From assembly GCA_008330645.1 (NCBI GenBank), contig VLTN01000044.1, positions 186,001 through 250,000 of the forward strand: DNA of 64,000 nucleotides, read 5' to 3'. This stretch comes from Cafeteria roenbergensis (lineage: Eukaryota; Sar; Bigyra; Bicosoecida; Cafeteriaceae). The notes under the pieces are model-generated. The model ran no database searches. It had not been told where the DNA came from and saw only the letters and a program-made list of their open reading frames with translations. The position numbers and the translations under genes are program-made. Of the stretch, positions 3,471 to 43,405 are shown in pieces; position 1 is the stretch's first letter, and each line of letters opens with the position of its first letter.

Positions 3471-4532
3471 TGCTGTGGCGGCTCGCTGGCCCGGGGCTGC
3501 AAGCCGGCAAGAGCGGTGCGCCGGAACTGCGCTCAGAGGAAGCGCTCGAGACGAAGCCGCGAGACCACTGGCCGGCTTGCGGGGCTGGCTTGCGCAGCCG
3601 CGGTGCGCCTGTGGCCGCCGTTGCCCGGGCGTGGTGCACTCTCTTGCCAACGGCCAGAGGAGGGCCGCGCGGCTCGCGGTGCCGCGCCGCCACACCACGC
3701 GCTGGGGCCCCGAGGCAAACGACGCTCGGCCGTCAGCACTGCCCAATGCGCGCTCACGTTGGTTGCCCGAGGCCCGAGAGATGAGGCGGGCAGAGTGCGC
3801 CCAGATTGCACAGAGCAGCTTTTCGCAGGATTGGCCCAAGTCATGCCCAACTTAGGCAGAGTCAGCTGCTGGTCTGCGAGCCGTTTACGGCTGCACTTGC
3901 CCAGGGTCGCGGGGCCACTGCCCTGTGCGCGCAGGCCGCCCTTCCCAGGGGAGGCCCTTGGTGAGCCACCTGCTGCGCTGCAGTCCATCCCGAACGGGAG
4001 CGAGGCGCCTGCCTTGGAGCTGGCGCAAGCGTGAAACCTGGCTGGGGCAAGTGGGTGTGACACGCGCCCACTGGCCGCCTTCTCATGCGCAAGTGCCGCC
4101 CTCCCGTCAGAGCCGGCCCCCGCGCGCCTGAGGGCTGCGAGCATGGCCGCCCTCAAGCTCAGTGCTTGGTCGCCCCGCGGCCTCGGCACGACAGAGGCGA
4201 CAAACTTTGTCCGCTGCCAAGCGGCTGGCGTGCGCGCCAGGTCTTCAATCGACGACTGTGTGCAGCAGTCACCACGGCCTGCCTCGCAGTCCCCCCCGAG
4301 TCGACACACCCAGCCGGCTTTCGTCGCCCTGCACACGTGCCTCTGCAGTCACTGGCAACTGCTCCCTCCCAGGCACGCCTGCTAGCAGACTGCCGCCCTT
4401 CCCGGCTGTGCTTGCGGCACTGCGGGGCAGCCACCTTCGCGGCAGGTGCCGGGCTCGTCGTCGTTGGGGAACTGCTCGTCGCGGTGAAACAAGGAGCCCC
4501 GACTTGTCTGCGACGAGGTTGCTTCGCTCGGC
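3471..4532. other. Intergenic, shared upstream region of two divergent genes
   Basis: It lies between the starts of the CAP-Gly gene (minus) and the six-helix membrane gene (plus). Open frames of up to about 270 codons exist on the minus strand, but they are Arg/Pro/Cys-rich, show no domain and no fitting splice signals, and look like chance frames in GC-rich DNA. No recognisable promoter element was seen. A short 5' exon of either neighbour cannot be excluded. Confidence 0.4.
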
Positions 4533-6272
4533 ATGGGCGCCCGCGAGGTCGCCAGCAACCGAAGCGTGAGCGAGAGCAGGCACATGGCAGTATCGCACGC
4601 CTCGGGGCGAGCTAGCCCGGAGGAATGCTGCCTCTGCGGCTCCTGCTTGGTTTGGGTCGGGCTGCTCTTCGGCATGGCAGCTGGACTCGGTGGGGTCGCA
4701 GCTGCGCTGCTCGTTGGCCACTCCGGCCCGGAATCCCCCCTTTGCAGCAACGGGCTGAGCTGGCTGGCGGCAGCTGCTGGGTTCATGGCCGCAGCCTCGG
4801 TGGCAGTGGCCAGCGCGCCGCAAATGGCGGCGCCGCGCGATGCGATGCCGAGCTGCGCGTATCGGCGCCAGCTCCATGTCGCTGCTTCTCACCTGTCGGG
4901 CGCGTCTGGCGCCCCCAAAGCAACACGGCGCTCTCTGGTTTCCAAAGAAGGCGCCGCGACACACCGAGCAACCGACGCCACTGGCCTGCAACGGACGCCC
5001 CGGTCTCCAGCCGCAGCTGACCCTCGGGCTTTCAGTGGAACCGCAAACGCTCAGGAGTTGCGCTTTTCGAGGGAATCGGACGTGCTGAGCGTCAGCAGCT
5101 GCGACAGCACCGGAAAGCAGCGGCCCGACGCGGAGGACCCACCGGGCGGCACGCCGCGCCAGTTGCCGAGCAGCCGCGACGGCTCAGGTGACCGGGACGC
5201 GTGCCGAAGCCTTGCGAGCCTCTGCATCACTGTTTCGTCCGTCGTCGTCATTTGCCTGGCCATGCTGATGGGCATGCTTGGACTCAGCACCGCGCTCTCC
5301 AAGTGCGACAGCGTCGTGGTGCTTCTGCTGCGTGGGACTCTCATCGGGGGCGTCCTGACACTCACAGCGGCGGCATTTTTTGCCGCCAGCACGCTTCGCG
5401 GAGCAATCCGCGTGCTTGAAGCACGCCGCAGCCGGGCTGCCAACGCTGTCGCTGCCATGGCTGCCCGCGTGAAGAAGCTCCGTGCTGCCGCACACGAGGC
5501 AGCCATGGACGTGGATGCGGCCGCGAGCCTGCCGGGCAAGACCGGCAGCAGGTCTGCTCGCTTGCGCCAAGTCAGAAGCTTCACGTCCAACGCCTCTGCC
5601 CGAGACCTCGCGCGGGAGTCTTCTGCCGTCAGCAAGCGACGCTCCCTCAGCATCACCAAGGTCCCCGAGCATGAGGTGGAGGCGACCTCCCCAAGCCTGC
5701 TTCACAATGCATCGAGCCTGGCCGAGATAGACGCGTTTAAGGCCGTGAAGGCCGTGAGACAGCAGCCGTGGCCAACCACGAAACACGACGTCCCGCCCTT
5801 GGAATGCGCCGGCCCCGGAAGAGCACCGTCAACCGCACGAGGGGCGGCGTCGCGGAGGTCGTCGGCAAGGCTGAGCGAAGGAGGCTCGTTCGTGAACTTT
5901 ATCAAGACGACGATGACCGCTCAGTCAAAAGTGATGAAGGTCCAGGAAGCGCTCCAGAGGGCGACCGGGCGCCTGGACGTTGCCACTGGCTGGCGGTGGC
6001 GGCTGGACGCGTCTCTGAATGGACTCGGGAGGCTGAGCATGGCCTGGGTTGCCACGTTCCTCGCCGTCGCCGTTGGAACCGGAATCGTGACCGCCCTGAC
6101 TGCCTTGGCCCCTCCGTACCAGCCCGAGTGCGTTGCCTACTTCGTGGCCCTTGCGTCCGGAGTCCAAGCGTGCTTCGCCTTCTGCATCGCGGCCTTGAAG
6201 CGCCACTCCGCCGTTGTCAGGCAGCAGACGCCCTTGCGCTCGACTTGGATCGTGCCCCTCGCGGGATCGTGA
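4533..6272 (+). CDS. Predicted six-transmembrane protein, unknown family
   Basis: Single-exon gene of 579 residues. Hydrophobic segments lie at about 39-62, 75-95, 231-255, 260-285, 500-525 and 532-555, giving three helical hairpins. A Cys cluster (EECCLCGSC) sits just before the first helix. The two long loops (about 96-230 and 286-499) are Ser/Arg/Ala-rich; the second begins with an amphipathic basic helix (AARVKKLRAAAHEAA). I do not recognise the family, and no transporter or kinase motif is visible. The first Met of the frame is used as start, but the Met at residue 19 is an alternative. The gene ends tail to tail with the tetraspan array. Codon use (GC-rich third positions) and the spaced hydrophobic segments support real coding. 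Confidence 0.75.
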   Translation: MGAREVASNRSVSESRHMAVSHASGRASPEECCLCGSCLVWVGLLFGMAAGLGGVAAALLVGHSGPESPLCSNGLSWLAAAAGFMAAASVAVASAPQMAAPRDAMPSCAYRRQLHVAASHLSGASGAPKATRRSLVSKEGAATHRATDATGLQRTPRSPAAADPRAFSGTANAQELRFSRESDVLSVSSCDSTGKQRPDAEDPPGGTPRQLPSSRDGSGDRDACRSLASLCITVSSVVVICLAMLMGMLGLSTALSKCDSVVVLLLRGTLIGGVLTLTAAAFFAASTLRGAIRVLEARRSRAANAVAAMAARVKKLRAAAHEAAMDVDAAASLPGKTGSRSARLRQVRSFTSNASARDLARESSAVSKRRSLSITKVPEHEVEATSPSLLHNASSLAEIDAFKAVKAVRQQPWPTTKHDVPPLECAGPGRAPSTARGAASRRSSARLSEGGSFVNFIKTTMTAQSKVMKVQEALQRATGRLDVATGWRWRLDASLNGLGRLSMAWVATFLAVAVGTGIVTALTALAPPYQPECVAYFVALASGVQACFAFCIAALKRHSAVVRQQTPLRSTWIVPLAGS

Positions 6273-6721: not shown

Positions 6722-7693
6722 TTAGCGAGCCTTCGTAGCAGAGCCGCCGCAGCATGTCGTGCAGAAGAGGATGGTCAGGGCACCCACGAGGGCGAACGCG
6801 GCGCCGCCCAGAGCGGCGTTCATTGCGTCACTGTCGCCGGCCTTGAGAGACACGGAGCGGCCATTGGCGTCGAATGAGCCATTGTCCCACCGCTGCACAA
6901 AACCGTCGCGGAGCTCGCTGGTCCGTACGATGCCGTACGAGGCGCCGTTGAGGCCAGCGGCAGCCAGGCCCAGGAAGGCGGCGAGAATGGAGCTCACGCG
7001 CACGCCAGTGGGAAGTCCGGAGAGACCACCGCAGAGTTGCTGGACCACAATCGGGATGGAAAGGATGCAAGCAGCGCCACCAGCGACGACCTGCGCGGTG
7101 TGTGGAGGGTCGCACGTCGTGGGGAGGAATCATGGCCATGGCGGGGGCTTGGTCGGTCGGCGGGCAGGGAAGCAGCGCGAGACCCACTGGTGTGGTTTGC
7201 AACCCCTCCCGCGCCAGATGCACTCACAGCGCTGATCATCATCTTGAATGTGTTGGTGAGGAGCTCCTCGGTGGACTTGCCTGTGACCGACTCGCGGTTG
7301 TCCGGGTTGAGGAACGGCCTCAAGATCGGCCAGCGCTCTTCGATCTCAGTGACCTCGTAGTGGGTGTTGCTGGTGGAGTCTGGGGTCTTCACGAAGGCAC
7401 CCGCACCAAGCGGGCCGCAGCCGAAGTTCACAGTGGTCTGCTGGTCGCCGTTCTGGCTGGAGAACACGGCGACAACCCACTGGCCGTCTCCGAGACTGGC
7501 AACGGCCAGGAAAGTTGCCACACCAAGGATGAGGAAGCCTGTTCACGGGGAAGGAAAGTGGCGGGGGCACAGCGGGAACCAGTGGTCAGTGCGGTGCTCA
7601 GCAGCTGGTCCGCAGAACACTCGATTCGTGCTCGGCGCGGGCAACGCCTCCGCGGTGCTCACCGAGGGCCGAGAAGATACCGGCGCAGCGCAT
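6722..7693 (-). CDS. Four-transmembrane protein, tandem array member 1
   Basis: Proposed exons are 7693-7663, 7538-7228 and 7090-6722, giving 236 residues. Intron 1 (124 nt) is phase 1 and intron 2 (137 nt) is phase 0; both donors are GTGAG. The first helix is assembled across intron 1 (residues about 5-27). A luminal or extracellular loop of about 85 residues follows with the family marks CGPLGA, EERWP, a Leu-Asn-Pro and GKSTEELL. Helices 2 and 3 flank QQLCGGLSGLPTGVRVS; a second loop has a WDN and AGDSDAMNAA, and helix 4 ends in a CCGG tail. It is most like array member 3. The four-helix topology and large first loop recall claudin/PMP22-like proteins, but the claudin W-GLW-C-C signature is absent, so the family is left open. 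Confidence 0.8.
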
Positions 7694-8619
7694 GGTTCGC
7701 AAGCTGCAGCGTCCGTGCAAGTGCGGTTTGTCGTTGCGCGCGGGGAGGGGGGAGGGGTGCGGCGTACGGGGGGCCGGGGGCAGTGGAAAGCCGACGGCGC
7801 GCAGCGAGCGGAACTGACACAGCGGCTCTAATTCAGGCGGCGCCGAGGCTGCCGGCGCTGCGGCGCTGCACACGCGCAGCCTCAGCGCCCCGTGCCAAGC
7901 CCCAGCGCCCGCTGCGTCCTTGGCCTGCTTGACCCCGGTACCCGTGGCCGGGGCTCCTCACATTCGCTTGTCAGAGAGCTTGTGGAGTGCGCTCCCCGGG
8001 CCTCACGGACCTTCAAGCCAGCGCGCCTGCGCAGAGCTTGGACGGCGCTGCCGGGCATGGCCGATTCCTGGCCGGCGCGCAGGCCGCGTGGCGCGCGCGG
8101 GAAGGCTGCTGCGCCACGGCGATGTTCGCCGCGCGCACAGCTGGACGGCATCGGTCCGGCCGTCGCCTGGTCCCCCCCCCTCGCCCCGGCTTTGGAGAGT
8201 CGCTTCGGTTGCAGCTTGTGCGGCGGAAGGACCGCACGAGCCCGCGCGCCATTGCGAGCCCGGCCCAGCCATCGCGCCCTCTCGCTGAGACGGAGCACGT
8301 TGGCGTGCTCCGAGCTGCCCCGGCGGGAGGGGGCGCCGTGGCGGGACCCGCGCCCGGCGGGGCCGGCGCGTGCACAAGCGACCGCCGAACAAAGCCAGCG
8401 ACTCCGCTCGTGGCATGGGCGGCCCGCGCCACCGGGCACGGCCCGATCGCCCCCACCAAACCACCACCTGTCAGAAGAGTGGGTGCGTATTGCTCTGTGC
8501 GTCAGTGGTGCCGGCGCGCGTCGTTATCGCGCAGCCTCGGCGCGGGAATCACGCAGCCATTGTCACACGGGTGGCTGTACTTCGCCGCCCTGCATTGCTC
8601 GTCGTCGCGCCCGGGATGT
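7694..8619. other. Intergenic within the tetraspan array
   Basis: Upstream region of array member 1 and downstream region of member 2. Overlapping open frames occur on both strands, but none resembles the array genes or has a fitting splice pattern. It includes a C-run near 8168. No gene is supported. Confidence 0.45.
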
Positions 8620-9833
8620 TCAGTGACCGGCTGGGCCCTTCACGAGGCTGTCGCCCTCGGCCTCTTCGTAGTCCTCGTCGTTGACTCCCGTGCACAGGGT
8701 GCCGCGCAGCACGATCATCAGCGCTCCAAGCAAAGCCATCACAGCCGCCGCAAGCGAGAGGTCCATCACTGCCGTGTCACCCGCCCACGCGTACGCGACG
8801 CCGCCGTTGTCCATCTCCACCTCCAGGCCGTTCCACCCGTCAACGAATTCGGAGCGGAACTGGCTGGCCCTGGTAAGCCCGAACCCGGCGATGAGGAGAA
8901 CGCTGGCTCCCAGACCGGCGACGCCTGCAGCCACGGCCTCGAGCTTGCCACAGCACTTGACCACCTTGAGGCGGCCGCACGCCTCGCGGACGACAAAGGG
9001 AGAGAACACCCCGATCGCGGCCACGCAGCCCACCACCTGCGGAGCGTTGCGCGAACGGGCCACCACAGACGAATACAAAAAAAGCGGCGGAGGCGGCGCC
9101 TGTGAGCAGTCGAAGCAGGAACTAGTGGGGAGCACCCCGCCGCGGCCCCGCCCCGCTGCAAGCCCGCGCGCGGCAGCAGGGGCGCTGTGCCTCGGGGCCG
9201 ATCGCGCGCCCGCGCCGCCCACCACGCGCCCTGCGCCACGCCCCGAGTCAACTCGCCGTGAAGGCATCATCGCACGCACGCGCGCGCGCGCGCTGGGCTC
9301 ACCCCTGCGGCCACCAGGTTGTACGTGTTGCTGAGCAGCGCGGCGGTGGACTTGCCATCCACGCCCTTGGAGGGCTGCGGGCTGAAGATCAGCTGGTGCT
9401 GCGCCCAGTTGGCCTCGATCTCCGACACCGGAGTGAGAGTGGACGGCTCGTCGTTGCCTGGGTCAAAGTACAGGCCGCTTGGGCCAAAGCCGAAGAAGCT
9501 GGTGAAATTGTCGCCTTTCTCGTTCACGTTTGGGAACGACGCCTCAACCCAGGGCCCGGCAAACAGCGACGCGACGCCGAGCGTCGCGGCAAGGAGGACG
9601 AGCGACATCGCTGCGGGCGAGGGCGGGCGGCAAGGCTCGAGGGCGCGCCTGGTATCCTATGGCTGGGTCGTTGCACTTGCGCAGCGCCGAGGGAACCGGC
9701 CCTCCACGCATCGTCTGCGAGTGCCCTCCCCTTCCCGTCCTCCACGGGCCCGTTTGGTCCCCCTCCCCGCTGCCCGACTGGACGGCTCACAAATAACGGA
9801 CACGGCCAGGCGGCCGCAATCCGGGCTGGCCAT
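8620..9833 (-). CDS. Four-transmembrane protein, tandem array member 2
   Basis: Proposed exons are 9833-9791, 9610-9303 and 9036-8620 (255 residues); introns are 180 and 266 nt with phases 1 and 0, as in the other members. The short first exon gives MASPDCGRLAVSVI, joined to a strong helix (about 15-33). The first loop holds FGFGPSGLYFDPG, an Ala-Asn-Trp and GKSTAALL. Helix 2 is followed by REACGRLKVVKCCGKLE, then helix 3, a second loop with EFVDGWN and AGDTAVMD, helix 4, and an acidic tail (NDEDYEEAEGD). The loop and the CG..KVVKC segment group it with member 5. The exon-1 start is inferred from the shared gene plan; the Met at 9608 in exon 2 is an alternative start, but would cut the first helix. 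Confidence 0.78.
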
Positions 9834-10148
9834 GCTGCCTGCGCGGGGAAAGGAGGGCGGGGCGGGAGGAGCAGCACCGCCAAGTTGCAGCCGACGGGCG
9901 CCCGCCACCTTAGCCACGGGCGGCGCCTCTGCCCGACGCCTCGGCGTGACTCCAACGACAAGCCCTTGGCATCCTCACACGCAGCTGTTGTTCTGGCCTC
10001 GGGTGGCGTCTGGCGGGGAGGTGATGCTGTTGCTTGCAGCGCGTTGCGATGGCTCTGCTTGCTCGTGGAGGCGAGTCGCCGGGCTCGTTCCGGCGCAGGT
10101 TCACGGGCACGCAAGCACAAGGGGAGAAAGAAGACGAAAAAAAAGGTC
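9834..10148. other. Intergenic between array members 2 and 3
   Basis: A short spacer with an A-run at about 10137-10145. No gene or clear element was seen. Confidence 0.45.
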
Positions 10149-11156
10149 TCAGGACTTCAGCAGGGCGCTCTTGACGCTGTCCTCGCTCTTGCTAGAGCCG
10201 CAGCAGCAGCTGGTGATGACAATCACAATTGCGGCGAGCAGCGCAAAGCCCGCCGCTCCCGCCGCGGCGTTCATGGCATCCGTGTTGCCGGCCACAAGGG
10301 ACACTGTTTCGTCGCCAATTTTCGTGGATCCGTGGTTCCACCCGGAGATGAAGCTGTCGCGAAGGCTGCTCTCGTAGATGAGCCCGAACGAGGCGGCATT
10401 GAGCGCGGCGCAGGCTGTCGCCAAGAGCGCGGCAAGGACCGCGCTGACGCGCACTCCCGTGGGGAGGCCTGACAGGCCGCCGCACAGCTGCTGAATCACG
10501 AGCGGGATGGCCAGGATTGCGCCCGCCCCTCCTGCCACGACCTGCGAGGGCCGCAATTGGACAGACCAGCGGCGAGGCTCGGCAAGGCAGCAGGCGACCG
10601 CGGTGCGCCGGACCGAGGCGGCGCCCCGGCGCGCAGCACGCAAGGCTCGGCGCCGAATCACGCGTGACTCACTCCTGCGATCATCATGTTCATAACGTCG
10701 CTCAGGAGGCGCTCGGTCGACTGGCCAGTCACGTCGGAATGCCCGCTGGGGTTGAGGGGTACAGCAACTTCAAGCCACTTGTCTTCGATGTCGGCAGTGG
10801 CCACGTGTCCCCCTTCGCTCTTGCCGTTGACCGTGGCCTCTGACCACGCCCCAAGTGGCCCGAAGCCGTAGTTAATGCTGACGGAATGGTCGTCACCGCT
10901 CGCCGCCAGGCTTGCGCGAACCCACATGCCAACCGCGAGGCTAGCGACGGACAGGAACGTAGCGCCACCAAGCAGCAGGATGCCTGCGAGGGGCAGCGGG
11001 CGCGGGCACGCGGCACTGGTTTGACAACAGCCCAGTGCTCGTTCTGGCACGCAGGGCCCGTGCCGGAACAATCGCCAGCAACGCTCGAAAATGCACGCGC
11101 CATCGCGGCGCGGCCTCACCAACACCGGAGCCAACGCCCGCGCAACGAGTGCACAT
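10149..11156 (-). CDS. Four-transmembrane protein, tandem array member 3
   Basis: Proposed exons are 11156-11120, 10983-10673 and 10541-10149 (246 residues); introns are 136 and 131 nt, phases 1 and 0. Helices lie at about 10-33, 114-133, 141-165 and 208-232. Loop 1 carries YGFGPLGAWSE, EDKWLE, a Leu-Asn-Pro and GQSTERLL. QQLCGGLSGLPTGVRVS lies between helices 2 and 3. Loop 2 carries DSFISGWN and VAGNTDAMNAAAG. The C terminus is CCCG followed by a short Ser/Lys tail. Exon 2 has exactly the same length (311 nt) as in member 1, its closest relative. All members lie on the minus strand, which points to tandem duplication. Confidence 0.8.
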
Positions 11157-12081
11157 ATCTGCGGGGAACCGAAATCGCACCACGAGCGGGGTGAGGGACG
11201 CTGAGCGCCGCAGAGAGCGCGAGCGGGGACGCCGCCTCAACTTGCAGCTGCCGAGGAATGGCAACTGGTCGCGTGCTTCGCTTGCCGCTGCCTGGCACCA
11301 TGCAGGGCGCTCAGCCAGCGGCCCGCCAGCCAAGCCAGAGTTCATGCGACGCGCTCCTCGACCCACGGCGCGCACGCGCCCAAAGGGGGTTTCCTCACCT
11401 GCTCGTCCGGGTCGCCTCGGGAGTGCGGGGAGAGTGGGCGTGGCCGCCACGTTGGCAGAGCCTGGTGCTTCCGCTCGGCCGAGACGCGCCCTGCCGCCCC
11501 GATTTGACGGCCGCGCGCGCGCCGGGTGCTGCCCGCCCCCCCCCTGACCCCCGGATTCCCCCTTGCCCCCTGCTCCCAGCGCAGGGCGCGTGGGCTCTGC
11601 AGAAGGGAGCCAGTGGCGGGCCAATACGCCTCCCCTGGTGGATTGCCATGTCTCCCGGCGGTAGGTCGCGACAGGCACGGCTGTGAATTCGCGTGCGTGC
11701 TTGCTTGCCGGGGATCGCGCGCACCGCCCCTGCGCCAGCGCGAGAGCCCGTTCCTTTGCTATCGCCGCACGTCACTCCTGCTGGGTCCTGGGGGCTCGAT
11801 GGGCGTCCGCCAGGCAGGCGGGCGCGCGGTCATTGGCGCGTCGCTCGGCCTGGGTTCAGGTGCGGGCGCGTGCCTCTGCGAGAGCGTGTTTGGGGCCGCT
11901 GCGCCTTGGCTGCGCGGGACAACGCACGGCCCAAGCTCGACGATGCACGGGTGTGGCGATGCACGTTGGTTGGACAGCGCCCCTCCGCTCGTCGACTGCA
12001 GCTTCCAGCGCCCCCAGCAACGTGGCACGACGAGCGCCGCGCTCGGGAGCGCAAGGGCACACCCACACGTTGCGCCCGGAA
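11157..12081. other. Intergenic between array members 3 and 4
   Basis: GC-rich with overlapping open frames on both strands but no recognisable domain. I looked for a decayed sixth tetraspan copy, searching for the GFGP, GKST and WN marks, and did not find one. Confidence 0.4.
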
Positions 12082-13098
12082 TCACGCGGGCATGAGGTGT
12101 CCGGATTCCGTCGACTTGGCCTCGCCCCGGCTGGCGTAGGCGAGATAGCCAAGCGCTGCCGCGGCGAAGGCAGCAAACACCGCACCTGCCGCTGCCGCGT
12201 CCATGGCGCTGGCGTTTCCCGACGAGAGAACGAGCGTTTCAAAGTCAATGTGCTCGGGCACTTTGTTCCACTCCTCGATGAAGCTGCTGCGAACCTCGCT
12301 GGCGTTGACGGCGCCAAAGGAAGCGAACCCGAGAATGCTGGCGAGAGCGAGCAGGCCGATGGCCGACAGGTTGAGCATGAAAACCACACGATCCGACACG
12401 TTGACGAACTTGCCGAGCTGGGTAGAGGCGCACGCAACCACGACGAAAAGGGCGACGGCTGCAGCGAGGTCCTGCGGACGAGGGCGGCAGGACACCCCTC
12501 AAGCAGCGCGCAGCCGCGGAGACCGGTCTCGAGCGCGGGTGAAACGCGGGCAGGGCGCGCTGGCGGCGCTGCAGCGTTTGGCCACTGGCGTGACTCGCTG
12601 GCCACGGCAATGGCGCGAGGGAGCGGCAGTCTCACGCCGGCGATCATGGTGTTGCGGGAGTCGAAGAGCAGGGATTGGAGGGCAACTCCGGTGAGGTGAG
12701 GGGCCCCCTTGGGGTTGAACACGCCCTCCACATCGGTCCAGGTGTGGTTGATGTGCTCGATGGGAATGAGAATCACAGTTGAGCGGAACCCGACCTGGAG
12801 CCGGTAGTGCAGCCCTTGGGGACCAAAGCCGAAATCGATCACGAGGGTGGTGGCGTCCTCGCCCTTGCCCTCGGTGGCCTCGCGGTGCGCGTTCACCCAT
12901 TCCCCGCTGTTAAGACTGGCGCCGAGCAGCGCGGTCGCGATCAGAGCCGAAATGGAAGCTGCGGGCGGCACAGGCAAGCGAGTCGGCGCGTGGCTACACC
13001 TGCGGAAAGCAGCGGAAGCGCGCGGAACAGCCGACCCGAGGCGGAAGAGAGCCCCGACCTCGCTCACCGACGCCCCAAAGGAGAGGAACCGTGCGCAT
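12082..13098 (-). CDS. Four-transmembrane protein, tandem array member 4 (most divergent)
   Basis: Proposed exons are 13098-13068, 12958-12636 and 12471-12082 (247 residues); introns are 109 and 164 nt, again phases 1 and 0. Family marks kept: GEWVNA after helix 1, DFGFGPQGLHY in loop 1, HTWTD, a Phe-Asn-Pro, a hydrophobic stretch ending MIAG at the second junction, FIEEWNK and SSGNASAMDAA in loop 2. It has lost the CGG segment between helices 2 and 3, and the GKST box reads TGVALQSLL. It ends in a short polar tail. The shared exon plan is the main evidence for common descent. Function unknown. Confidence 0.76.
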
Positions 13099-13714
13099 GG
13101 CGTCTCCTGCGGGGCGGGGCGGGGAGAGCATGCACAGCACGGCAAGCAGGGGGCAGAGGTCGCGAGGGCTGAAGCTGGCCGCGTTCCGGAACGCATGTCG
13201 CGACGCTTCTCCGACGCGGCCCCAGTGACGCCCGGCGCAACTCGCGGCCGCAAGGTGTATGGCTTCGACCCAGCAAGCCTTCTGCCTCACCCTGCCGGCC
13301 TTCTGGGAAGCAGCAGTGCCGAATTCGCAGCTGTTTCCGGCCGTGACAGGCGGCAGAGGCCTGCGGCCGGGATCGCGTCTGCGGCACTCTCCCACAGCTG
13401 GGCTCGTCTGACCCCGCCGCAGCGGCCGGTGCGCCTTCGTGCAGCACGCACCATGCAGTGTTTGCGCGGAACAAGCCGCTGGCCGCTTTCGCGAGCTGCT
13501 GCCTGTCAAGCGCGTCAGGCGGCGGCGCAGGTTGGCCAAAGGGCACGCTTTTTGTGTGTGTGAACTCGCGGCGGCCGATCCGCACAGCACGCCGCTGCGG
13601 GGAAGGGCGCGCGCTTGCGGCAACCCTACGCTCCCAACGCAGCCCGGGCTCTGTCCCACGCACTTGAGCGCGGGGCGCTTGCTCGGCGCAGGGCGCATCG
13701 CGCAGCAGCGCCGC
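13099..13714. other. Intergenic between array members 4 and 5
   Basis: A spacer with a short T/GT run near 13549-13560. The open frames here have no domain similarity. No regulatory site can be named. Confidence 0.4.
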
Positions 13715-14878
13715 TCAGCCAGCCTTGAACGGGTTGTCCTTGGCCGCGAGGACCGGCTCCCCGACTTCGTCGTCGGAGCGACTGGCGCCGCGGCCTGCGC
13801 ACACCGTGCCGCGCAAGAGCACAAGAAGGGCGCCGAGCAGCGCACAGGTCGTGGCAGCTGCCGCGCAGTCCATCACGGGCGTGTTCCCAGCAAGCATTGA
13901 CACTGTGGCGTCTTTAGTCTTATAGGTCCCCTTGTTCCAGAACCCGACGAATCCCTCGCGAAGGGGTCCCGCTCCCACCGCCCCGAACGCAGCCCCGATG
14001 AGAACGGCGGCCACGACCGCGACCACGCCGGCAGCGATGGAGGTCCAGCGGCCGAAGCACTTCACCACGGCCACGCCGCCGCACACGTCCCGGGTCAGGA
14101 AGGGCAAGAAGATGATCGCAGCCGCAGCGCATCCCACGGCCTGCGGGGTGGGGTTGGCGGTCAGCGAGCGGGGCGGCGGCAGGCGTGGGCGGCAGTGGGC
14201 TGCAAGCCGAGGTGTGCCAGCGCGCGCAATTCGACGGCGGGGGCGGCGGCTTGGCCTTGGGCCGTCCAAATCACAATGCGCGAGGCGACGTCGACTGAAA
14301 GGTACCCCGGCGCCTGGCGTGCACGAGCTTGTCTCACCCCTGCGGCCACCAGGTTGTACGAGTTGCCCAGCAGCGCGGCGGTCGACTTGCCGTCCACGCC
14401 CTCCTTGTCCTCGGGGTTGAACACCGACTTTTGACTCTCCCACGTCGCCTCAATGAGCGAAACAGGAATTTGGGCAGCCTGGCTGCTTTGGTCAAGCTTG
14501 TAAAACAGGCCAGAGGGGCCAAAGCCGACTGCGACGTCGCTGTTCGTTTTGCTTTCCGAATCAACCTTTTCGCGCGCCTCGACCCATTCTCCCGCAAGCA
14601 GCGCAATGACGGCCAGCCCTCCACCGAGAACCACAAGGGAGAACGCTGCGGAGGGGCTCGGGGGAGGAGGAGTGAGCGGGGCCTCTGAGCGCAAGCTCGA
14701 CAGCAGGCCGGCTCGAATGCGCGCCCAGGGCAACCGCGATGAGCTGGCGACTCCCCTCCCCCTGTCGAGGCTCCCGGCCGGCGCCACTTGCTGCGCAGCG
14801 GCTACGCGGAAACGCCTGCCTCGTTGTGCAGCAGCGCATCGGCTCACCGGCGATGCTCAGAACGCAAGTGCGCCGCAT
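13715..14878 (-). CDS. Four-transmembrane protein, tandem array member 5
   Basis: Proposed exons are 14878-14848, 14645-14338 and 14140-13715 (254 residues); introns are 202 and 197 nt, phases 1 and 0. Exon 2 is 308 nt, identical in length to member 2. The first exon encodes MRRTCVLSIA, joined to a helix ending GEWVEAREK. Loop 1 has VGFGPSGLFYKL, EATWES, a Phe-Asn-Pro and GKSTAALLGNSYNLVAAG. DVCGGVAVVKCFG lies between helices 2 and 3. Loop 2 has GFVGFWNKG and LAGNTPVMD. The tail is polar and acidic. Its first exon lies 426 bp from the divergently transcribed mitochondrial carrier. Membership of the array is secure; biochemical role unknown. Confidence 0.8.
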
Positions 14879-15304
14879 GATCCTGCGACAAGGTCGGGAG
14901 CCAAAGTGGCGGGAGCCGAACGCGTGGCCGGCAGCGCGGCTTGGCTCCGCGCGCCGCCACACAGGCAGCACCAGCAGACCCGTACGCGATGCGCTCGTCC
15001 CCTTGGCTTACCTGCCGCTCCTGTGGCACTGAGCGCGAGTGCGCGGAGTGTTCCCTGCTGCTGCAACAAACTGCCAAGGGCCGTGGCTCTGCAGTGGAAC
15101 TCGCGCGGACTTGGCCCCATCGCAAGCCGCGTTGCGCGGGAGCACAGGGCGTGCTGGCGTGCTGGCAGGCAGTTGCGGTCCCGCGAGGTTGCCCGGGCTC
15201 CTTCCAGCAGGCGCTGGCGTCTCCCGCGAAGCGTCAGTGCGGGCCGCACCCTGCGCTCGCTGCCAGCCGCCCCGACACGCCCGCCGCCACTTCGCCGGGC
15301 GGCC
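14879..15304. promoter_or_regulatory. Divergent intergenic region, putative bidirectional promoter
   Basis: Separates the start of tetraspan member 5 (minus) from the carrier (plus). No TATA-like or initiator motif stands out in this GC-rich DNA, so the promoter role is inferred only from gene orientation. Confidence 0.3.
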
Positions 15305-16222
15305 ATGGGGCTGGAGACTGCAGCGTGGTGGCACCTGTTTGTTTTCTCCGGCGTGGGTGCGTGTGTGGCCGAGGTGTGCACGATGCCGCTCGACGTCACA
15401 AAGACGCGGTTGCAGCTTTCCCGCACGTCGCAAGGCACCCGCGCTCCGGGCCTGGCCAGGTCCTTGCTCCAGGTGGCTTCCGAGCGCGGGCCCGCCGGCC
15501 TCTGGAGCGGGCTGTCCCCCGCGCTGCTGCGGCAGGCAACGTACGGAAGCGCCCGCATCGGCCTGTACGAGCCGGCCAAGCGCGCGCTCGCCTCGGCGCG
15601 AGGCCGCGCGCTCGGCGCCCCCCGCCGTCAGCCAGCAGCGCCCTCGCGCCCAGAGCCGTCGCCTCTCGTCGACAAGCTGCTGGCCGGCACCATGAGCGGC
15701 GCGCTCGCCTCTGCAGCGTTCAACCCCACCGACAGGGTCAAGGTGCTGCTGCAGGCGCCTGTGCAGCCGAGCGCAGGGCGCCCCAGCGGCCGGCGCGGGG
15801 CCGTTGCGGTCGCCCGTGAGGTGGTGCGCTCGGAGGGGTTCGCAGGGCTCTACCGCGGGTGGGGCCCGACTGCGACCCGAGCGGCGCTGGTCGCGGCAGC
15901 CGAGCTTGCCACATACGACGAGTTCAAGGCCCGCCTGCTGGACTGGGGGCTGGAGGGGGGGGCGTCGACGACGCACCTGGCCGCCTCCGGCCTCGCAGGG
16001 CTGGTTGCTGCGGCGGTTTCGTCGCCGGCTGACGTTGTCAAGTCCAGAGTGATGGCGGACCCTGCCCGATACCCGGGGTTCGCGTCGGCACTGACCACCA
16101 CTCTCCGCGAGGAGGGGCCCTCGGCGCTCTACCGCGGTTTCGTGCCAAACGCAGTCCGCATCGTGCCTCACGTGTGCATCGGCTTCGTGGTTCTCGAGCG
16201 ACTGCGAGCGTGGGCCAGCTGA
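15305..16222 (+). CDS. Mitochondrial carrier family protein, UCP/dicarboxylate-type
   Basis: Intronless, 305 residues, the usual length for the SLC25 family of inner-membrane solute exchangers. Three repeats are visible, each with the carrier signature: MPLDVTKTRLQL (P28), NPTDRVKVLLQ (P141) and SPADVVKSRVM (P241), followed by GLWSGL, GLYRGWGPTATRAALV and ALYRGFVPNAVRIVP. The stretch AALVAAAELATYDEFK (about 194-209) is typical of the uncoupling-protein/dicarboxylate/oxoglutarate branch. The substrate cannot be fixed from sequence; organic-anion exchange or proton leak are the family options. A Pro/Ser/Arg-rich insert (about 100-118) lengthens the loop before repeat 2. The start is the Met just before the first helix; the longer upstream frame lacks carrier features. 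Confidence 0.93.
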   Translation: MGLETAAWWHLFVFSGVGACVAEVCTMPLDVTKTRLQLSRTSQGTRAPGLARSLLQVASERGPAGLWSGLSPALLRQATYGSARIGLYEPAKRALASARGRALGAPRRQPAAPSRPEPSPLVDKLLAGTMSGALASAAFNPTDRVKVLLQAPVQPSAGRPSGRRGAVAVAREVVRSEGFAGLYRGWGPTATRAALVAAAELATYDEFKARLLDWGLEGGASTTHLAASGLAGLVAAAVSSPADVVKSRVMADPARYPGFASALTTTLREEGPSALYRGFVPNAVRIVPHVCIGFVVLERLRAWAS

Positions 16223-23484: not shown

Positions 23485-26400
23485 ATGCCAGACGCCCCGT
23501 CCTTGGTGGTGGCCTCGTGGCCCGTGGTGCGCCACTGGCCCTCGGAGTTCAAGGAAGAAGTGCCCGCCGATCGGCGGGTGGGCTGGCCAACGAAAGCCCT
23601 CGCCGCTTCGCTCGTGCTCATGGCTGTGGCCTCCAACCTGGCTGCGATGGTGAAGGGCCGCCAGGGGGCATACGATGCCGTGCCAGAGGGCTTGGCGACG
23701 GCAGCGCACGCCTGGCTTGCCAGCGGGCGCAACGCGTCGCACCCCGAGCAAACGGTGGGCTTGGAGGCTGCCTGGGCGCACATCAACCGGAGGGAGTCCT
23801 GGTACTACGCAGGCATCGGCATTGCCGCCCCCGGGGTGGCGATGGTTCTCGTGAACTCGGGGATGTTTTGGACGTCCCTGGACCTCCAAGTGCGAGTGCG
23901 GTGAGTTTGAAAGCCAGCTTGTCGAGCCCCGACAGACCGGCAAAAAGGGCAGCAAACCCACCCCGCTCCCCGCATGCCTTCTGTCCCGTGCCCTCTCGTG
24001 TCGCTCCCGCAGCACCGTTGTTCTGGTCGCTGCATACGCGGCCTCACTGCTTTGTTCGCACGTCATTGGCTCGTGGGGCCTCGTGGCAAAGCGGCCGGTC
24101 GCCGACGGCAGTTGCGACGACTCGGCCGTAGACTTGCACGCGCTCGTCCTGGTGTACTGCGCCCTGGCGTCGTTTGCCACATCGCTCTGGGCTTGGTCGG
24201 GCAAGTTTCTTGCCATCCCCGAGGCTTCAGCCGACTCATCCGAAAGCGATGACGGCAGCTCGGCCGCTGACGCGGAGGAGCGACGCGTCAGGTTCGTTGC
24301 GTTCGCCCGCCTCGTCGAGCGGCTTTCGTGGCCCATGGGGTGCCTGGTGGTCGCTGGCGCATGGGTTCTGTTCCTATCGGCGCTTCGCCTGGAGTTGTTC
24401 AACACCGAAATGATGCTCCGGGTGGGCGATGGCCTGCTTGCATTGGGATGCGCTGCCTTGGTTCTGGCGCGCCTGGTTGTGATTTGCCTTGCCAGCTTCC
24501 GCTTCCGCTCCAGGCTCCGCCGGGCTCTGACCACCTGCTGCTCGTACAAGTCGGGGCCAACAGGCGGCGACTTCACCGTTGGACTGGTGCTTTTTGCAGC
24601 AATCATTATCATGGTGATTCTGCCGAGCGGCGGTGGCCTTCCCGCTTCGCCCAACGGAGATTGCATGCCTTGGGAGCTGAGCGGTGCGCAAGAGCCACCG
24701 ACGAGCCTGCTGGCACCGGAGGGGTCCAGCTGGCCGTTTGGACTTGACCCACTGCTGCCCACGCACCGGGCACGCGCTGCTCGGCTCTTCGACCGCTCCA
24801 CCTGGTTTGCCATGCTTGCCGGCGTGACAATGACCCTGACGGCCATTGCGCTGCTGTTGGACTCCCAGAACCAGATGGCCCGGCTGCGTCAACTTGCGAG
24901 CGAGGCAGCCGGGGCCAAACTGCGCCGCGCTCTCCTGTACATCGGCCACCAGGCGCGCGGTCCACTCAACTCGGCTTCTCTATCCCTGGACGCACTGGCC
25001 CGCTGCGCCGCGCAAGCTGCCGACGGTTCAGACGCGGAGCAGCTACTGGACTCGGCACCGGCCACCGAGCGCGGGTCGGACACCGTGCAAGGCCGCTTCT
25101 CTGACTCTGGCTCAGGTTTCGCCCACGCACCTCTCGGGACTGAACCAGCAGGGGGTGCTCCCCAACCAGGGCAGGATACTGCCCAGACCTTGTCGCCAGT
25201 CCTCGCGGAAGCCTTTGGGGCAACCAGCGCCGCAAGCCGACCGACCGAGATGCCCGAGAGCCCGGCGAGCGGTGCCGTGATCGCCGAAGCGGCAGCCCGA
25301 ACGGAAAGGACCGAGCCAGCATCGGGGAGCTACCTCGACGCGACCTCTGCGCGCAGCGCACCGCGCTCGGACCAAGCTGGCGTCGGCCCAAGCGCAAAGG
25401 CTCGGGCCGCAGGCCGACACGCTTGCCAGCCGTCTGATCGACTGAGCGAGATGGCGACGGGCGCGCGCGGGACGGGAGGTGAGCTCGCGTTGCCAGCGGG
25501 GGGCGCGGGCTCAAGCGCGCAGCAGGGCGAGTGCCCGCTGCTTGGCCTCCGACAGAGCATCGCGCAGGCCGTTCACCACCTCGACGACCTGCTGCTCTGG
25601 GAAGAGCTGTCGGCCGAAGCGGAGGCGCTTCGGCTTGGCGAGGCGGCCACCGAGGAGGACAGCGACTGCGAGACACAAGAAGGCGACAGCGGAGGCGACG
25701 GGCGCTTGGGAGACTCAAGCAATCGGAGCGACGGGCATGGAGATGGCAAGGCCGGCAACGCGGTCGACAACCGCAGCAGCCCTCGGCTCCAGCACGGCCA
25801 GCATGGCCCAGGCCACCATGAGCGGCGCTCCCGCCGGTCCCGCCTAGCAAGGGCTGCTGACTTTGCCAGCCAGAGCGGCGGCAACACTGGAAGGAGCGGC
25901 GGATCGACTCGCTCGGCCAGCGCGAGCCAGCGAGCCACAAGCCGTGCCAGGTGGGGGCCTCCAGATGCGGCACTCCTTGCGCCGCTGGCAGAGCGATTCA
26001 GCACTGCTTGCGAGCAGGAGGGCGTGGGCCTGGTGCTTGGCTGGGAGGAGGCGTACCAGCTCGGCACGTTGCCCTCTGACGTGCTTGCGAAGGGCGGGTG
26101 GACCTCCACCACGGCCGACGGCGCCCCCAGCGCGAGCGGCACTTCAGGCCCAGAGGCCGGGCTTGTCACAGTTGGCGTGGTCACGCGGGCCGGCGCAGCG
26201 CCCAGCCCTTCTCCCGCTGCTGGCGTGGAGGTGATGGCCACGCTCCCGTCTCTGCCGCTGCGAGAGCACGGAAGCGACGTCACGTCGGGGGGGGGAGGTT
26301 GCCCGCAGGCTGGGCAAGCCACGGCGCAGGGGGCACGGGCGGCGCTGGAGCACGGCTCAAGCCGGCTCTCGTCGCAGCTGCAGGGAACGATCACGTCCCC

Positions 26401-29400
26401 TGTCGCCACCACGGCCGCGTCATCAGCGGGCCGGTCGCCGGATGCTCACGGCCAGCTTTCGGCCCCATTGCAGCCGCGCTCCCTGGCCTTGCCGGACGGA
26501 CACATCTCGGCTGAGCCGCGCGCAGGGGTGGCGGCTGGCGCTCCGCCGCAGGTTCCGCAGGGAATGCTCGTCAAGTCTCGTTCCGTGTCGAGGGACAAGC
26601 CGAGCACAGCCTTGGGGTTTGAGGCACACGGGGGGTGGTCGTCGGCAGGCGCTTTGCATGCAGGGTCAAGTTCGCTCACCCGGAGCCCAGACGGCGTGCT
26701 GGTGACTGAGCCAGCGGATGGCGTGGGGCAATGTAGCCCGGGCGCACTCTCGGGGGGTGCTGTCGTGGACTTGGGTGGGGCATTGGCTTGCGACTTGGCT
26801 CGCTTGAGCGTCGGGCCGGCGAGTCGGACGCAACTTCAGGAAGGCAGGCGCGGCACTGTGGGCGCTCGCAGGAGCTTCGGCAACGTTGCCAGGGGGCGGT
26901 CCGGCGCCCGCCGAAGAGTGGCTCCAGACGATCATTCGCGGGCTGGCGCGTCCCAGCCCCGGTTCGAGGCGCAGACTCGAGGGCTGCCCACCAACCCGAT
27001 GGCTTTGAGCCGGGACTTGAGCGAGCAGTCGAGCGACGAGGCGGACTTGACCGGCGACGTCGCGGTTCAGTCCAGGCTTGAACATCACAACCTCTCGACG
27101 GCAAAGGTCGTGTCCGGGAACAGTGCCGGCCTGGCAGGGTCGAGGCGGTTGCAGTCGGTGCAAGTCCCACGAAGCCCCGGTTTCGCGAGGCTGCATCATT
27201 CTGCGCTGGCGTCCGACGACTCCGCATCGAGCACTAGCAACCGCAGCCCACTTGGGCGGTCTCCAGACTCGTCATCACGACACCCGACGCTCGGCCCCGT
27301 CGCAAGGGTTGGCAGTGTGGGAGGCAAACCTGGACAGCGGCCTGGCCCGATGGTTCAAACGAGCGGGTTGCTCTCGGCGCTTCCGTCGGATCCAACGGAC
27401 ACCATTCACGGCGTGTCTGACGTGGAGGGGGCGACGTCTGTGTCGCTCACCCAACAGTCGCCCTGCAACGCAGTCAAACGTGCCGAATCAGGCTGCGAGG
27501 AGACTGGGACGGCCCGGTCGGCTGACACGTCGCCGGCACGCGATGGCTGGTTCGCGCGGCGGGGTTCAGAAGTCCAGGGCACGGGCCAGTCACCGCATGA
27601 AAGCTCTGTAACGGGGGGTGCAGGGAAGCGACGATGGACGACAGAGCTTCCAGGGGCTGCTGACGATCTTTTTGCGGAGCAGCTTCAAGCAAGCCCTGCG
27701 CCCCAGAAGGATCCGTCAAACGCGCCTTCCATCGCCGGGACGGAAGGCATAGCGGTGGTGAGCGACCCGCACAGCGGTGCAGTGCCGTCTTTCGTGAGCG
27801 AGGAGCACGCATTTGAGGTGTTTGCGGACCACGAGCGCCTCCTGGGCGTGCTGGTCAGCGCGGTTTCCAATGCGCTGACCCACTCTCATAAGGACGGGAC
27901 CATCATCGTGCTGCAGTCGGTTCTCACGTCGCGCAAGGCCGTGGCGTCGCTGCCGCGCCCCCAACACGATCCGCCCGAGATCCAGCGGTTGGTCGGTGAG
28001 ACGAAACTGGACAGCGGCAGCTCATCTGGACTTTTTGGCGATGGAAGCTGCGGCGCAATGTGCAAGACCAACGTCTGCGGTGGACACGAGGTTCCGATGC
28101 GCGGTGGGGCTGCCACCGGCCGCTGCAGGGGCTGCCGGGCCCGATCCGCGCGCTGCCGCCCCAAGGCAAACCGGCACGTGGCTGCGTCGCCAGCCGGGCT
28201 GCGGTCAGGCGCGCTACGAACGAGGCAGAGCGGAACCGCCGCACCCTCGGCTTTGCGGGGACGCGGCAGCGGCCCAAGCATGTCCCAGAGCAGCTTGGGA
28301 ACGTCGCGGCGGGGGTCTGCCAAGGCCGACGGTTCCTGGGCCACGGGACGTGCGCTGCCGGCTCAATCCCGGCCGGATAGCCTTCTCAAGCAAGCGGGCC
28401 GCGCGGCGGCAGCGAGCCGGCTTGAGTCCCTGACGGCAGCCGGCGCTGCGGTGTCCGATTCAGCAGGAGCTCTTGGCAGCGCGTCCTCCGCCCCGAATGC
28501 GTCTGCAGCGCCGTCGCACGAGGAGAGCGAGCACGCGCCGTCGCTGGGCGCCCGGGCAGAGAGCGAGCCACGAGGCGCCAAGCCACGGCCCGTGCCCCGA
28601 CTGCTCTCGGGGTGGCAGCGGTCGCGACCAGGAACGAAGGCCCCTCGCCTGTCCAGGCTTGGCCGCTCTGTCGGCGCCCCCTCGTCCGCGCTGGCAGGGC
28701 TGATCAGCCGCGGTCTCCCCAGCGCGAGGGAGGTCGGCCTGGAGCGCGCGGTGTTGGTCCTCGAGGTGAGGGACTTCGGCTCCGGCGTTTCCGCCGACGA
28801 GATGCGGCGCGGCGCGCTGTTCCAGCCCTTCGTTCACCTGCGGCAGGGCGGAAGCACGGCTGCCAAGGCAAGCGCGAGCGGGCTCAGCCTGGCCATTGCT
28901 CGGGTGGTCGTAGTCGAGGGAATGGGCGGGGAGGTCGGCCTGTGCAGCAAGGAGGGCGCGGGCACCGTGCTGTTCGCCCGGATCCCCGTGTGGGCTCGGC
29001 GTGCCCGCAGCATCAAGGCTTCAACCAGCGCCGAAATGGCTCGCATGCTAGCCGACGCGGGTACCGTGAGAGGAGTGAGCGCGTGCGGCGACGCCCCCGA
29101 CGGCTTGGAGAGCGTTGGCGCGACCAGCTCTGCCAGCGGTGCGGCTGGGCTGGCCCAGCTTGCGTCCCGCAGTGCTTCAGTGGCAACGGCCCAGCAAGAG
29201 AGCAGCGAGGGCGCGTGGGGCATCGCAGACGGAGCCCCCCACGGCCAGGCGGCCGCAGCGGCGGCTCGCCGGGCCCATCTTCCCGGCAGAGCAAGCAGCG
29301 AAAGCCGGCAGGACAGTCCCACCGTGCACCCGCTCGCGTCGCGGAGCCGGGCCGCGCACGGGCGCAGCGCTGGTGACGTCACCACCGGCCTGCGTGAAGA

Positions 29401-31135
29401 GCCTGGCGGCGGCAGGACGGCGGCCAGCGGAAGCGCCCAACGAGCGCGCGCTTGCTCCTGCGATCCTACCTCGGCTGGCTGGCAGGGCCGGGGCGGCAGA
29501 GCCGTGTCGGTGCCCCTCGCAACGCCAGTCAGCCCGACCGCCAAGTCCACCGTCGAGCTCAGCGACTTTACCGCAAGACGCACGGCGGCCGTGGGCGAGC
29601 TGGGAGGTCATGCAGCAGCGGCTGGTTTGGAGGGGATTCAGGCGGAGTCCGTGGCATCCGCGGCCACAGGCTCCACGCGCGATGGTGCCACAGAGGCAAC
29701 GCCAGCCGGAGGGGTGTCCCGGCCTGTCGTTGGGGCCCAGCTGAAACGGCGCCGGCAGCTGACCCGACAGCACCAGCTGCACAGCGGGGGCAGCAGACTG
29801 GGCGTGGCGGCGTCCGCTGGCACATCGCGAGGCTTGAGTGACCGGTCGCTATCGGGTCACCACTGGGGCCCCGTGAGCGACTGGCGGAGCGAGAGTAAGC
29901 CGCAATCGTCCACAGTCGGTTCGGCCGGTTCCGGCTCTCTCGCGAAGCGCAGGAGTGACTGCGCGAGGGGCGTTTCATCGGTTGTGGGGCCGAAAAGCTG
30001 CGTGTCGGGGTCGCCTGCCCTGCGCCCGAGGGTGCCGCTGAAGCTGGCTGGAGCGGCTGCGACAACCAGCATCCCTCCCGGTGGCGAGGTCTCCCCAAAC
30101 GCTGCTAGCGACGACCGCCTAGAAGTCCAAACAGGCTCCTCGTCGTGCGTGCGCGCACCCGGACGTGGCCGCTGGCAGACGACGCGGCAACACGGGTCTC
30201 AGCAAGTGGACGTGACGCAATCGGCAGGCCCGCTGCCAGCGAGGTCGTTGCGAATCAACCGCTCGGAAGGCGAACGGCCTCCCAGGCCAGCAAGACCCGA
30301 AGCCGATCGGAAGGCGCCCGAGCCGCCCGCAGGCAAGTCCTCGCGGCACAGCACGGACGAGCCGAGCCTCCCCGCCAGCAGCGGGGCTGGGGCAGGCGAC
30401 ACCAAGCCCCGCCGAAGCGCGTGGCCGGCGCGCGCGGTGCCATCACACGACGATGCCGAGGAAGGCGGAGGAGAGCACCAGGGCCCAGTATCGCCGGGCG
30501 CAGGCGAACCGTCCGCTGAGCCACAGACATCAGGGGACAGCACGGTCGACTTGAACCCGAGACGCGACTCGCGAGCTGCGCCCCGGAGGAAGGGACGGGC
30601 CGACAGGCAGGCACGCCGGGAGGCGAGGGAGCTCGCACGGCGCAAGCCGAGGGCAGGCTCGCAGCGCGCGGTGCCGTCCAGCAGGCCCAGCGCGTTGCCG
30701 CTTCGGTCGCGTGGCCGGCATGTGTTCGTCGTGGACGACGAGAACTCCTCCCGCACCATGACGGCCGCGCTGCTCCGACGAAACGGTCTGGTTGCGCTGA
30801 TGTTCGAGAACGGGTTGGAGCTTGTGACGGCACTTCGAGCGCTTGTGGCGGGAGAGAGCGCGGGCGAATGGCCCGCATTCGTGACGCTGGACGTCGAGAT
30901 GCCTGTAATGGACGGCCGCGAGGCGCTCAGGACGATTCGCGCAGACGCCGAACAGCTGGCCCAGAGGGGCCTGCGGCAAGAGGCCGACCGCCTGCTCGCG
31001 CTGCCCATCATCGTCGTCAGCGGCAACGCGCGCTTGCGAGACCGGCAGCAGGTGCTGCAGCTCGGCGCCCGCACGGTCGTGAACAAGCCCGTGGAGGCCG
31101 ACTCGCTTCTCCGAACGCTGCGGGAGTTCCTCTAG
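23485..31135 (+). CDS. Giant membrane hybrid histidine kinase (HK1)
   Basis: Proposed exons are 23485-23900 and 24013-31135 (phase 2 intron of 112 nt), giving about 2512 residues. Eight predicted membrane helices occupy the first 430 residues. DHp helix 1 follows with YIGHQARGPLN (His451, putative phospho-acceptor). After about 190 low-complexity residues comes DHp helix 2 (DDLLLWEEL, about 665). The ATPase parts are scattered: N-box FADHERLLGVL then SNALTHSH (Asn1425), G1 box VRDFGSGV (Asp1726), F-box LFQPFV and G2 ASGLSLAIA (about 1762). A C-terminal receiver (about 2375-2512) has VVDDEN, phospho-acceptor Asp2432 in LDVEMP, VVSGN and Lys2497 in NKP. Key catalytic residues are present, so it is probably an active sensor passing phosphate from His to its own receiver. 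Spacer composition is Ser/Ala/Gly/Arg-rich. Signal and output are unknown. Confidence 0.88.
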
Positions 31136-34800: not shown

Positions 34801-35888
34801 GACTGGGCTGGGATGGCCGAGCTCTGACGACAATGATCGCGACGTGACTCAGGCGCGAATGGGTCCTGATGGGCAAGCTCAAGTGCTCAGCGGAATGCCG
34901 AGTTCCGATGTGCACGGAGTGACGCGCGCTGGCGGCAGGATGGCTGCGTCGGTTGTCGTCAGCAGCAGCGTTGCGAGTGACAGAGGCAGCAGTTTCCGCG
35001 GTGACTCCTCCGTGACAGGTCCCCGAAGGCCCACTCCCCCCACAGGTGACACGGTTGACGGCGCAGCCGCGACCGCCGGCGCGGCCACTGAGGCCGAAAC
35101 CGTGGCTGCGTCGGCGTCCTCATCGCCTGCGTCTTCACCGACGGGCGGAGCGGCGGCAGCGGCAACGCCGATGCCAGCAGCGGCTCCGGTTCCTGCGGAC
35201 TCAGCCTTGGCTCGGCTGAGAGATGCCGCCCAGCCGACGTCCAAGTCGTCAGCTGACTGGCACGGCTTCGAGGACGTCACCAGCGTGGGAGGCTCTGCCG
35301 CAGAGCCGCAAACATCGGGTCACCGCTCAGTCAGGGGCCAGTCACCCCCTCTCAACACCGCAGACCCGCGATCGTCCATCAGCACGATGGCAGGGCCCTC
35401 AGCGGTTTCAGCCGAGGCGAGCGTCGCTCCGCACTCTGCAGTGGTGAGCAGCAACACACGCAGCCCCGTCACCGGGGTGAGAGACGCTGGCGCAGCCAGG
35501 ACGTCGCCGGTGGCTGGCTACCGCTCTGACAGAGCCGAGGGCACGGCAGCCGCCTCACACTTTCTTGTCCATCAGCGGCAAGTCGATGGCCAGTCACTTC
35601 CCAGTCAAGGCGTCGAACTACGGCTCGTGCACGCGGGGACGACGTCCCTTGGACCTGACGGCGACGTGTCGTCACTCTCTCCGGAAGAGCCAGGCGAAAC
35701 CGCCTGGTCGCCATCCACGTCGTCGCTTGATCGTTCCAGCCGCGAGGATGCAGCAAGAGCGGCCCCCGCCAGGCAGGGTGCGTGGCAGTGCGGCGGCGAA
35801 ACCGCGAAGCGTGCCGCGGCCGCCGCAGGCAGAGCAGGTCAGCTGAGCATCAGCCCAGCGGTCAGCGGGACGAGCAGCGGCCAGGGCA

Positions 35889-35932
<44 letters not shown>

Positions 35933-38900: not shown

Positions 38901-39601
38901 CAGTGTCAGCTGTGGTAGGACAAGGCCGTTCACAGCCAGGGCGGTTGCAGTTGCACCTGGGTCACTCGCAATCTGGAGAAACGGCTGGGTCTGACCCGAC
39001 GGCTCCGGTGGTGGCTATGCATCGCTACAAGTCCAGTGACTCCAAGAGCGCAGGCCAGAGCGACCCTGGGCACCGTCACGACGGATCATCGTCATCAGCA
39101 GGCTTGGGCAGGCATGAAACGGCCAATCACGACCCGGTCGAGCGACCTCAAAGATCGGATGGGCCGGGCAGCGGCGTTGCTGCGGCCGCTTTGGCCGCCC
39201 ACAGCGGCAGGGTTGCAGCGTCCGGCGAACCCCAGAGAGCCAGTCACGTGGAGTCGGACGCCGCTGCGACGGAGGAGCTAGGTGCAATCGTTCCCGGTGC
39301 GGAGTTTCACCAAAGTGCGGAGATTCCCGTCTGCGAGACGGCGTCGAGGGACCTGGGTCACTCGCCAACGCACCGCCTCGGCGCAGCTCAGACCGCGTTG
39401 CGCCCTGCGCCTGCAGAGCCGCAAGCCGCCCCAGCCGCACCGGCGGACGCACCCACGGACCCGGCGGCGCCGATTGTCTCGCAGCCGGGGCTCGCCAGCC
39501 CGGCCGAGCTAGGCTGCGCGGTGGTGGCACCCGTCAGCTCAGCGTCAGCCAGACGTCGCCAGCGGGCCCACTCCAACCTGACACGTCGCTCGCAGCAGCA
39601 G

Positions 39602-39640
<39 letters not shown>

Positions 39641-40242: not shown

Positions 40243-40287
<45 letters not shown>

Positions 40288-43200: not shown

Positions 43201-43354
43201 TCAGAGCAACGCGGAGTCCGGACCGTGGGGTCAGGCCCTGCTGCATGGACGCGGCCAGCCACCGCCCCGGAGCCGCGACCGAGCGCCCAGCAGCGACCGC
43301 GCGGACGCCGCTGACGGCTCCGGTGCCGACGGCACTTGGGGCGATGGCACTGGG

Positions 43355-43405
<51 letters not shown>

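Follow-up and report, generated by a model that had tools for sequence, protein, structure and literature searches.

Claudins and their relatives are best known from animals, in which the fold is used between cells (claudins) and beside channels (the TARPs/CACNG proteins and GSG1L, auxiliary subunits of AMPA receptors). In the claudin fold, a bundle of four helices is combined with a sheet of five strands, of which extracellular loop 1 (ECL1) supplies four and extracellular loop 2 (ECL2) one, and an ECL1 disulfide is common to all claudin and TARP structures (PMC13307082). The available part of PMC11275452 gives W-GLW-C-C as the claudin family motif and a PDZ-binding C terminus as a family trait. 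Replacement of the two signature cysteines by alanine in a claudin-1 chimera cost about 100-fold in affinity, according to the available part of PMC8124314; the ECL1 bond therefore matters in claudins. We analyzed a 64,000-nucleotide window of the Cafeteria roenbergensis genome (GenBank assembly GCA_008330645.1, contig VLTN01000044.1, positions 186,001 to 250,000; G+C about 70%). Positions 6722..14878 of this window carry five tandem genes on the minus strand, here termed M1 to M5, for which an original prediction from the DNA letters had proposed an array of divergent four-helix membrane proteins. Structure models suggest that M1-M5 quite probably belong to a single, old membrane protein family with the claudin fold.

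Predicted structure and sequence marks of M1-M5

Four hydrophobic regions were found in all five proteins. Structures were predicted in two runs, led by M3 and M4, with five models per run and the same four sequences in both. The M3 and M4 models each had four helices. ECL1 formed four strands, at residues 34-41, 46-54, 57-64 and 67-74 in M3 and at residues 32-40, 47-56, 59-66 and 69-75 in M4. Both models matched the claudin fold across nearly the full chain, and claudin-15 (PDB 4p79) superposed over 176 of 181 residues at 2.8 Å. The predicted fold was the same as that of claudin-15 and of claudin-3, -4, -9 and -19: four helices, four ECL1 strands, one or more ECL2 strands and a helix before transmembrane helix 2 (TM2). 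TARPs and GSG1L were also among the best superpositions. Judged by these models, a claudin fold is very likely for M1-M5.

M1-M5 differ from claudins in the composition of their loops. The ten extracellular loops hold a single cysteine, in M1; ECL1 has no cysteine in four of the five members, and ECL2 has none in all five. The tryptophan at the start of strand 1 is conserved in all five members and is common to claudins, whereas GLW is replaced by a box that reads GFGP in four members and GCGP in M1, with its glycine 19-23 residues further on. The third-last residue is never Ser or Thr in M1-M5, so that their C termini carry no class I PDZ-type motif. The claudin-like topology without a claudin signature that had been described from the sequence was borne out, since the four-helix models fit the claudin fold and both GLW and C-C are absent.

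The remaining marks proposed as common to the array were present in most members, but alignments showed them, like the GFGP box, to be looser than claimed. GKST occurs in M1, M2 and M5, is GQST in M3, and has no counterpart box in M4. Trp-Asn was found in four members and is WD in M1; AGN--AM matched exactly in M3 only and was varied in the other four. In the models, GQST of M3 (residues 99-102) and the equivalent residues of M4 (101-104) begin the TM2 helix on its extracellular side. For this reason, and because M4 has no such box and the other P-loop elements are absent, Walker-type nucleotide binding by GKST was rejected.

Nineteen cysteines lie in the fifteen cytosolic segments (none in M4), and another 8 lie inside helices. 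To judge from their position, the membrane-adjacent cytosolic cysteines of four members are probably palmitoylation or other lipid-attachment sites. The loops of M1, M2 and M4 carry N-glycosylation-type triplets, of which M3 and M5 have none. M4 is the odd member of the array: its cytosolic segments are free of cysteine, it lacks GKST, and it has five of these triplets, three of which lie in loops. Mean identity was 32% in loops vs 37% in helices. Hypervariability of the loops was not upheld, as they are barely more divergent than the helices.

As had been stated in the original prediction, the family could not be assigned by sequence. Pfam returned no family for any of the five members at E≤10, a range in which HMMER filters discard most matches above about E 0.1. 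The only NCBIfam match, PA2779_fam (E 0.24, one of five members), was taken as chance. PDB sequence profile searches (E≤10) returned no claudin; a prenyltransferase alone was found (E 0.52 and 2.1) and was likewise taken as chance. Rfam gave no match in the window at gathering scores. The original prediction had held that placement in a well-known family would count against it. Sequence gave no such placement, and structure gave it in part, in that the match of two models to the claudin fold extends along almost the entire chain. Among the open-access titles listed, we found none on a claudin-like protein family in stramenopiles.

Other families were also compared. Kinetoplastid amastins are protist tetraspans that occur in tandem arrays, are considered claudin-related and have a cysteine-bearing signature in loop 1. 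This signature cannot be present in M1-M5, because their ECL1 has no cysteine pair, and M1-M5 gave no Pfam match to amastins. The Sur7/PalI proteins of fungi reside in the plasma membrane and have four helices and a loop that resembles that of claudins; M1-M5 did not match them in Pfam at E≤10, and any kinship would be remote. The large second loop of tetraspanins is marked by a CCG motif and disulfide bonds, whereas ECL2 of M1-M5 is free of cysteine throughout. No connexin, tetraspanin or MAL family protein was among the structural matches listed.

A viral origin was rejected, in that a search of viral contigs with one pattern yielded no relative (61 stretches matched, none confirmed) and none of 478 matches (E≤10) in a viral structure library reached E≤0.001. 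The third-ranked match in that library was a weak likeness of the M3 model to BFVD entry A0A481Z1S8, a transmembrane protein of Pithovirus LCPAC001 (E 0.12, probability 0.98, target TM-score 0.49).

Gene plan, kinship and genomic surroundings

The coordinates of the five genes were confirmed, with splice sites chosen by eye following the plan of the original prediction. M1 (7693-6722, 236 aa) has exon 1 at 7663..7693 (31 nt), exon 2 at 7228..7538 (311 nt), which encodes TM1 and ECL1, and exon 3 at 6722..7090 (369 nt with stop), which encodes TM2-TM4, loop 2 and the tail. The exons of M2 (9833-8620, 255 aa) are 9791..9833 (43 nt), 9303..9610 (308 nt) and 8620..9036 (417 nt with stop); its exon 1 is the least certain of the first exons, because an in-frame ATG lies near the start of exon 2. 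M3 (11156-10149, 246 aa), lead of the first structure model, comprises 11120..11156 (37 nt), 10673..10983 (311 nt) and 10149..10541 (393 nt with stop). M4 (13098-12082, 247 aa), the most divergent member and lead of the second model, comprises 13068..13098 (31 nt), 12636..12958 (323 nt) and 12082..12471 (390 nt with stop). M5 (14878-13715, 254 aa) comprises 14848..14878 (31 nt), 14338..14645 (308 nt) and 13715..14140 (426 nt with stop). All ten introns start with GTGAG and end with CAG. In all five genes, intron 1 lies at alignment column 17 in phase 1, intron 2 follows column 124 in phase 0, and every spliced frame is open throughout. The claimed gene plan, with its minute first exons and near-constant exon 2, was therefore reproduced.

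Pairwise identity among M1-M5 was 25-49%. The lowest of the 20 directed BLASTP scores among them was 47.8 bits, and the best of 1000 block-shuffled comparisons (200 per member) was 37.7 bits; the likeness is not due to chance, because all real scores exceed the shuffled maximum. The pairing of M1 with M3 and of M2 with M5 held in part. These two pairs had the top identities (0.49 and 0.44, respectively), and the tree grouped M2 with M5 at support 94/96, slightly below the firm-support mark of the tool. Placement of M1 and M3 was not settled in the tree, and M4 had a long branch that was flagged by a tool warning. Duplication of a gene block could have produced pairs 1/3 and 2/5 within the order 1-2-3-4-5.

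The nonsynonymous rate (dN, 0.50-0.99) was lower than the synonymous rate (dS, 0.86-1.70) in all ten pairs. The dN/dS ratio ranged from about one third in M1/M3 to nearly equal rates in M3/M5, and these ratios are rough because silent sites are near saturation. For the same reason the duplications look old. The whole genome assembly (36,303,456 bases, 167 contigs) was searched with the M3, M4 and M5 proteins, only the best candidates being scored, exon by exon, at E≤10; each query gave ten matches, all inside the array. Of M1, one exon was searched as DNA. The lineage-specific expansion considered plausible in the original prediction is thus weakened, as the duplications look old and no copy was found beyond the array for the three of five proteins searched.

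An 86-base tract across the junction of exon 2 with intron 2 (minus strand, 9282..9367 in M2 and 14317..14402 in M5) is common to M2 and M5. Its DNA identity was 88%, higher than in the remainder of both genes; by 20-codon windows, the best value in the tract was 92%, vs 38-73% in the remaining windows. The same codon was used at 15 of 18 positions in the tract, which is not unique (0/7 to 4/5 elsewhere), and the intronic likeness comes mainly from the beginning of the splice site. The tract could reflect gene conversion or local constraint.

Beside the array, at 4488-6272 (plus strand), lies a stop-to-stop open frame of 594 codons with no Pfam match at E≤0.01 and three pairs of hydrophobic stretches, identified by eye; its product is perhaps a membrane protein. 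A gene for a mitochondrial carrier, matched in three stretches (E 8.6e-65), adjoins the array on the opposite strand at 15302-16222 (plus strand). Two plus-strand open frames at 23855-31132 and 32753-45109 (2426 and 4119 codons from stop to stop) encode an ATPase domain of the histidine-kinase type plus a receiver domain close to the C-terminal end; in the second frame the receiver match falls below its cut-off. They are probably neighbouring hybrid histidine kinases. An Ion_trans cation channel (E 1.1e-21) was found at 52688-55159 (minus strand). The nearness of the channel and the kinases is no evidence of partnership with M1-M5. Minus-strand open frames at 45723-52709 and 55534-63462 (2329 and 2643 codons, stop to stop) had no Pfam match at E≤0.001.

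Alternative readings and possible role

Several results weigh against a claudin-fold family. The M3 and M4 models are not independent, because the same four sequences underlie both, and the weakest of the five models had a pLDDT (predicted local distance difference test) of 74.9 in the M3 run and 65.9 in the M4 run. The place of the ECL2 strands (187-191 and 194-202 in M3; 199-204 in M4) beside strand 1, where the fifth strand of the claudin fold lies, is putative, although whole-chain superpositions agree with it. Foldseek E-values were modest for M3. By E-value, the DUOX maturation factor DUOXA1 ranked second for M3 and first for M4; however, its target TM-scores (0.39-0.53) were below those of most claudins (about 0.55-0.73 for non-fusion claudin chains), and DUOXA proteins have five membrane helices, whereas models and hydropathy give four for M1-M5. 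No claudin link was found by sequence in Pfam or PDB profiles at E≤10, identity to claudins in the superpositions was 8-15%, and the ECL1 disulfide and W-GLW-C-C are missing from all five members. The last three points would also fit an unrelated tetraspan family that had converged on a similar helix-plus-sheet layout and was claudin-like in shape only. Against convergence, claudin-15 superposes almost entirely, and the strand 1 tryptophan and the box glycine of M1-M5 are spaced nearly as W30 and G49 of claudins. We consider convergence fairly unlikely, and common descent of the M1-M5 family with claudins reasonably probable. It is very improbable that the exon models are wrong or the genes are pseudogenes. 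In favour of that reading, the splice sites were chosen by eye from the DNA, M2 exon 2 offers an alternative in-frame ATG, and dN/dS approaches 1 in some pairs (0.82 vs 0.86 in M3/M5), though silent sites there are saturated; the identical intron columns and phases, canonical splice sites, open frames and confident structure models argue for intact genes.

If M1-M5 are claudin-fold proteins, each would span the membrane four times with both ends cytosolic, the side being suggested by charges and cysteines. Prediction and superposition support a sheet outside the cell, made of four loop 1 strands and one or more loop 2 strands, and a short helix before TM2; the ECL1 disulfide seen in claudins and TARPs is absent. 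The cytosolic ends may be lipid-modified through their membrane-adjacent cysteines. At the cell surface, the proteins might associate sideways with each other or with further membrane proteins and thereby govern how a channel, transporter or membrane patch behaves or where it sits; TARPs, GSG1L and Sur7-type proteins act in this manner. The five diverged copies could serve different partners or life stages. By analogy, we tentatively favour this lateral role over cell-cell sealing, because the presumed host lives as single cells and has no tissue junctions; we rate it clearly below an even chance.

The main functional rival, also by analogy, is surface recognition or trans adhesion, in which the loops would bind other cells, prey bacteria or surfaces, as in a tandem family of the amastin type. 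A tandem array of diverged members and the N-glycosylation-type triplets in M1, M2 and M4 loops would fit such a role, whereas M3 and M5 lack these triplets and the five copies at one locus show no sign of recent expansion. The near-equal divergence of loops and helices caused us to lower our estimate of this reading slightly, from unlikely to a shade below that. M1-M5 could instead act in the manner of TARPs, as auxiliary subunits dedicated to a single cation channel, for example one of the Ion_trans kind encoded 38 kb from the array, and the place of TARPs and GSG1L among the best superpositions is consistent with this. However, genomic distance says little and a shared fold shows no function; M1-M5 differ from TARPs and GSG1L in having no disulfide, no sequence link and no known partner. 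We regard such a dedicated subunit role as unlikely.

Implications for the claudin fold

The models of M1-M5, a probable claudin-fold family without the claudin signature, hint that the fold reaches beyond animal cell junctions. M1-M5 may represent a disulfide-free branch of the claudin superfamily in a free-living stramenopile, which would mean that the fold predates the stramenopile/opisthokont split or crossed it, and that it first served single cells, whose plasma membrane it organised or in which it acted as a lateral partner, and was later recruited for junctions and synapses; we give this somewhat less than an even chance. The available part of PMC6972860 describes C. roenbergensis as cultured, with four strains sequenced, so expression and location of M1-M5 are open to experiment. 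If the proposal is true, M1-M5 would be a natural example of the claudin fold without its disulfide, in a bacterivorous flagellate, and would offer an entry point to asking what the claudin fold did before tissues.
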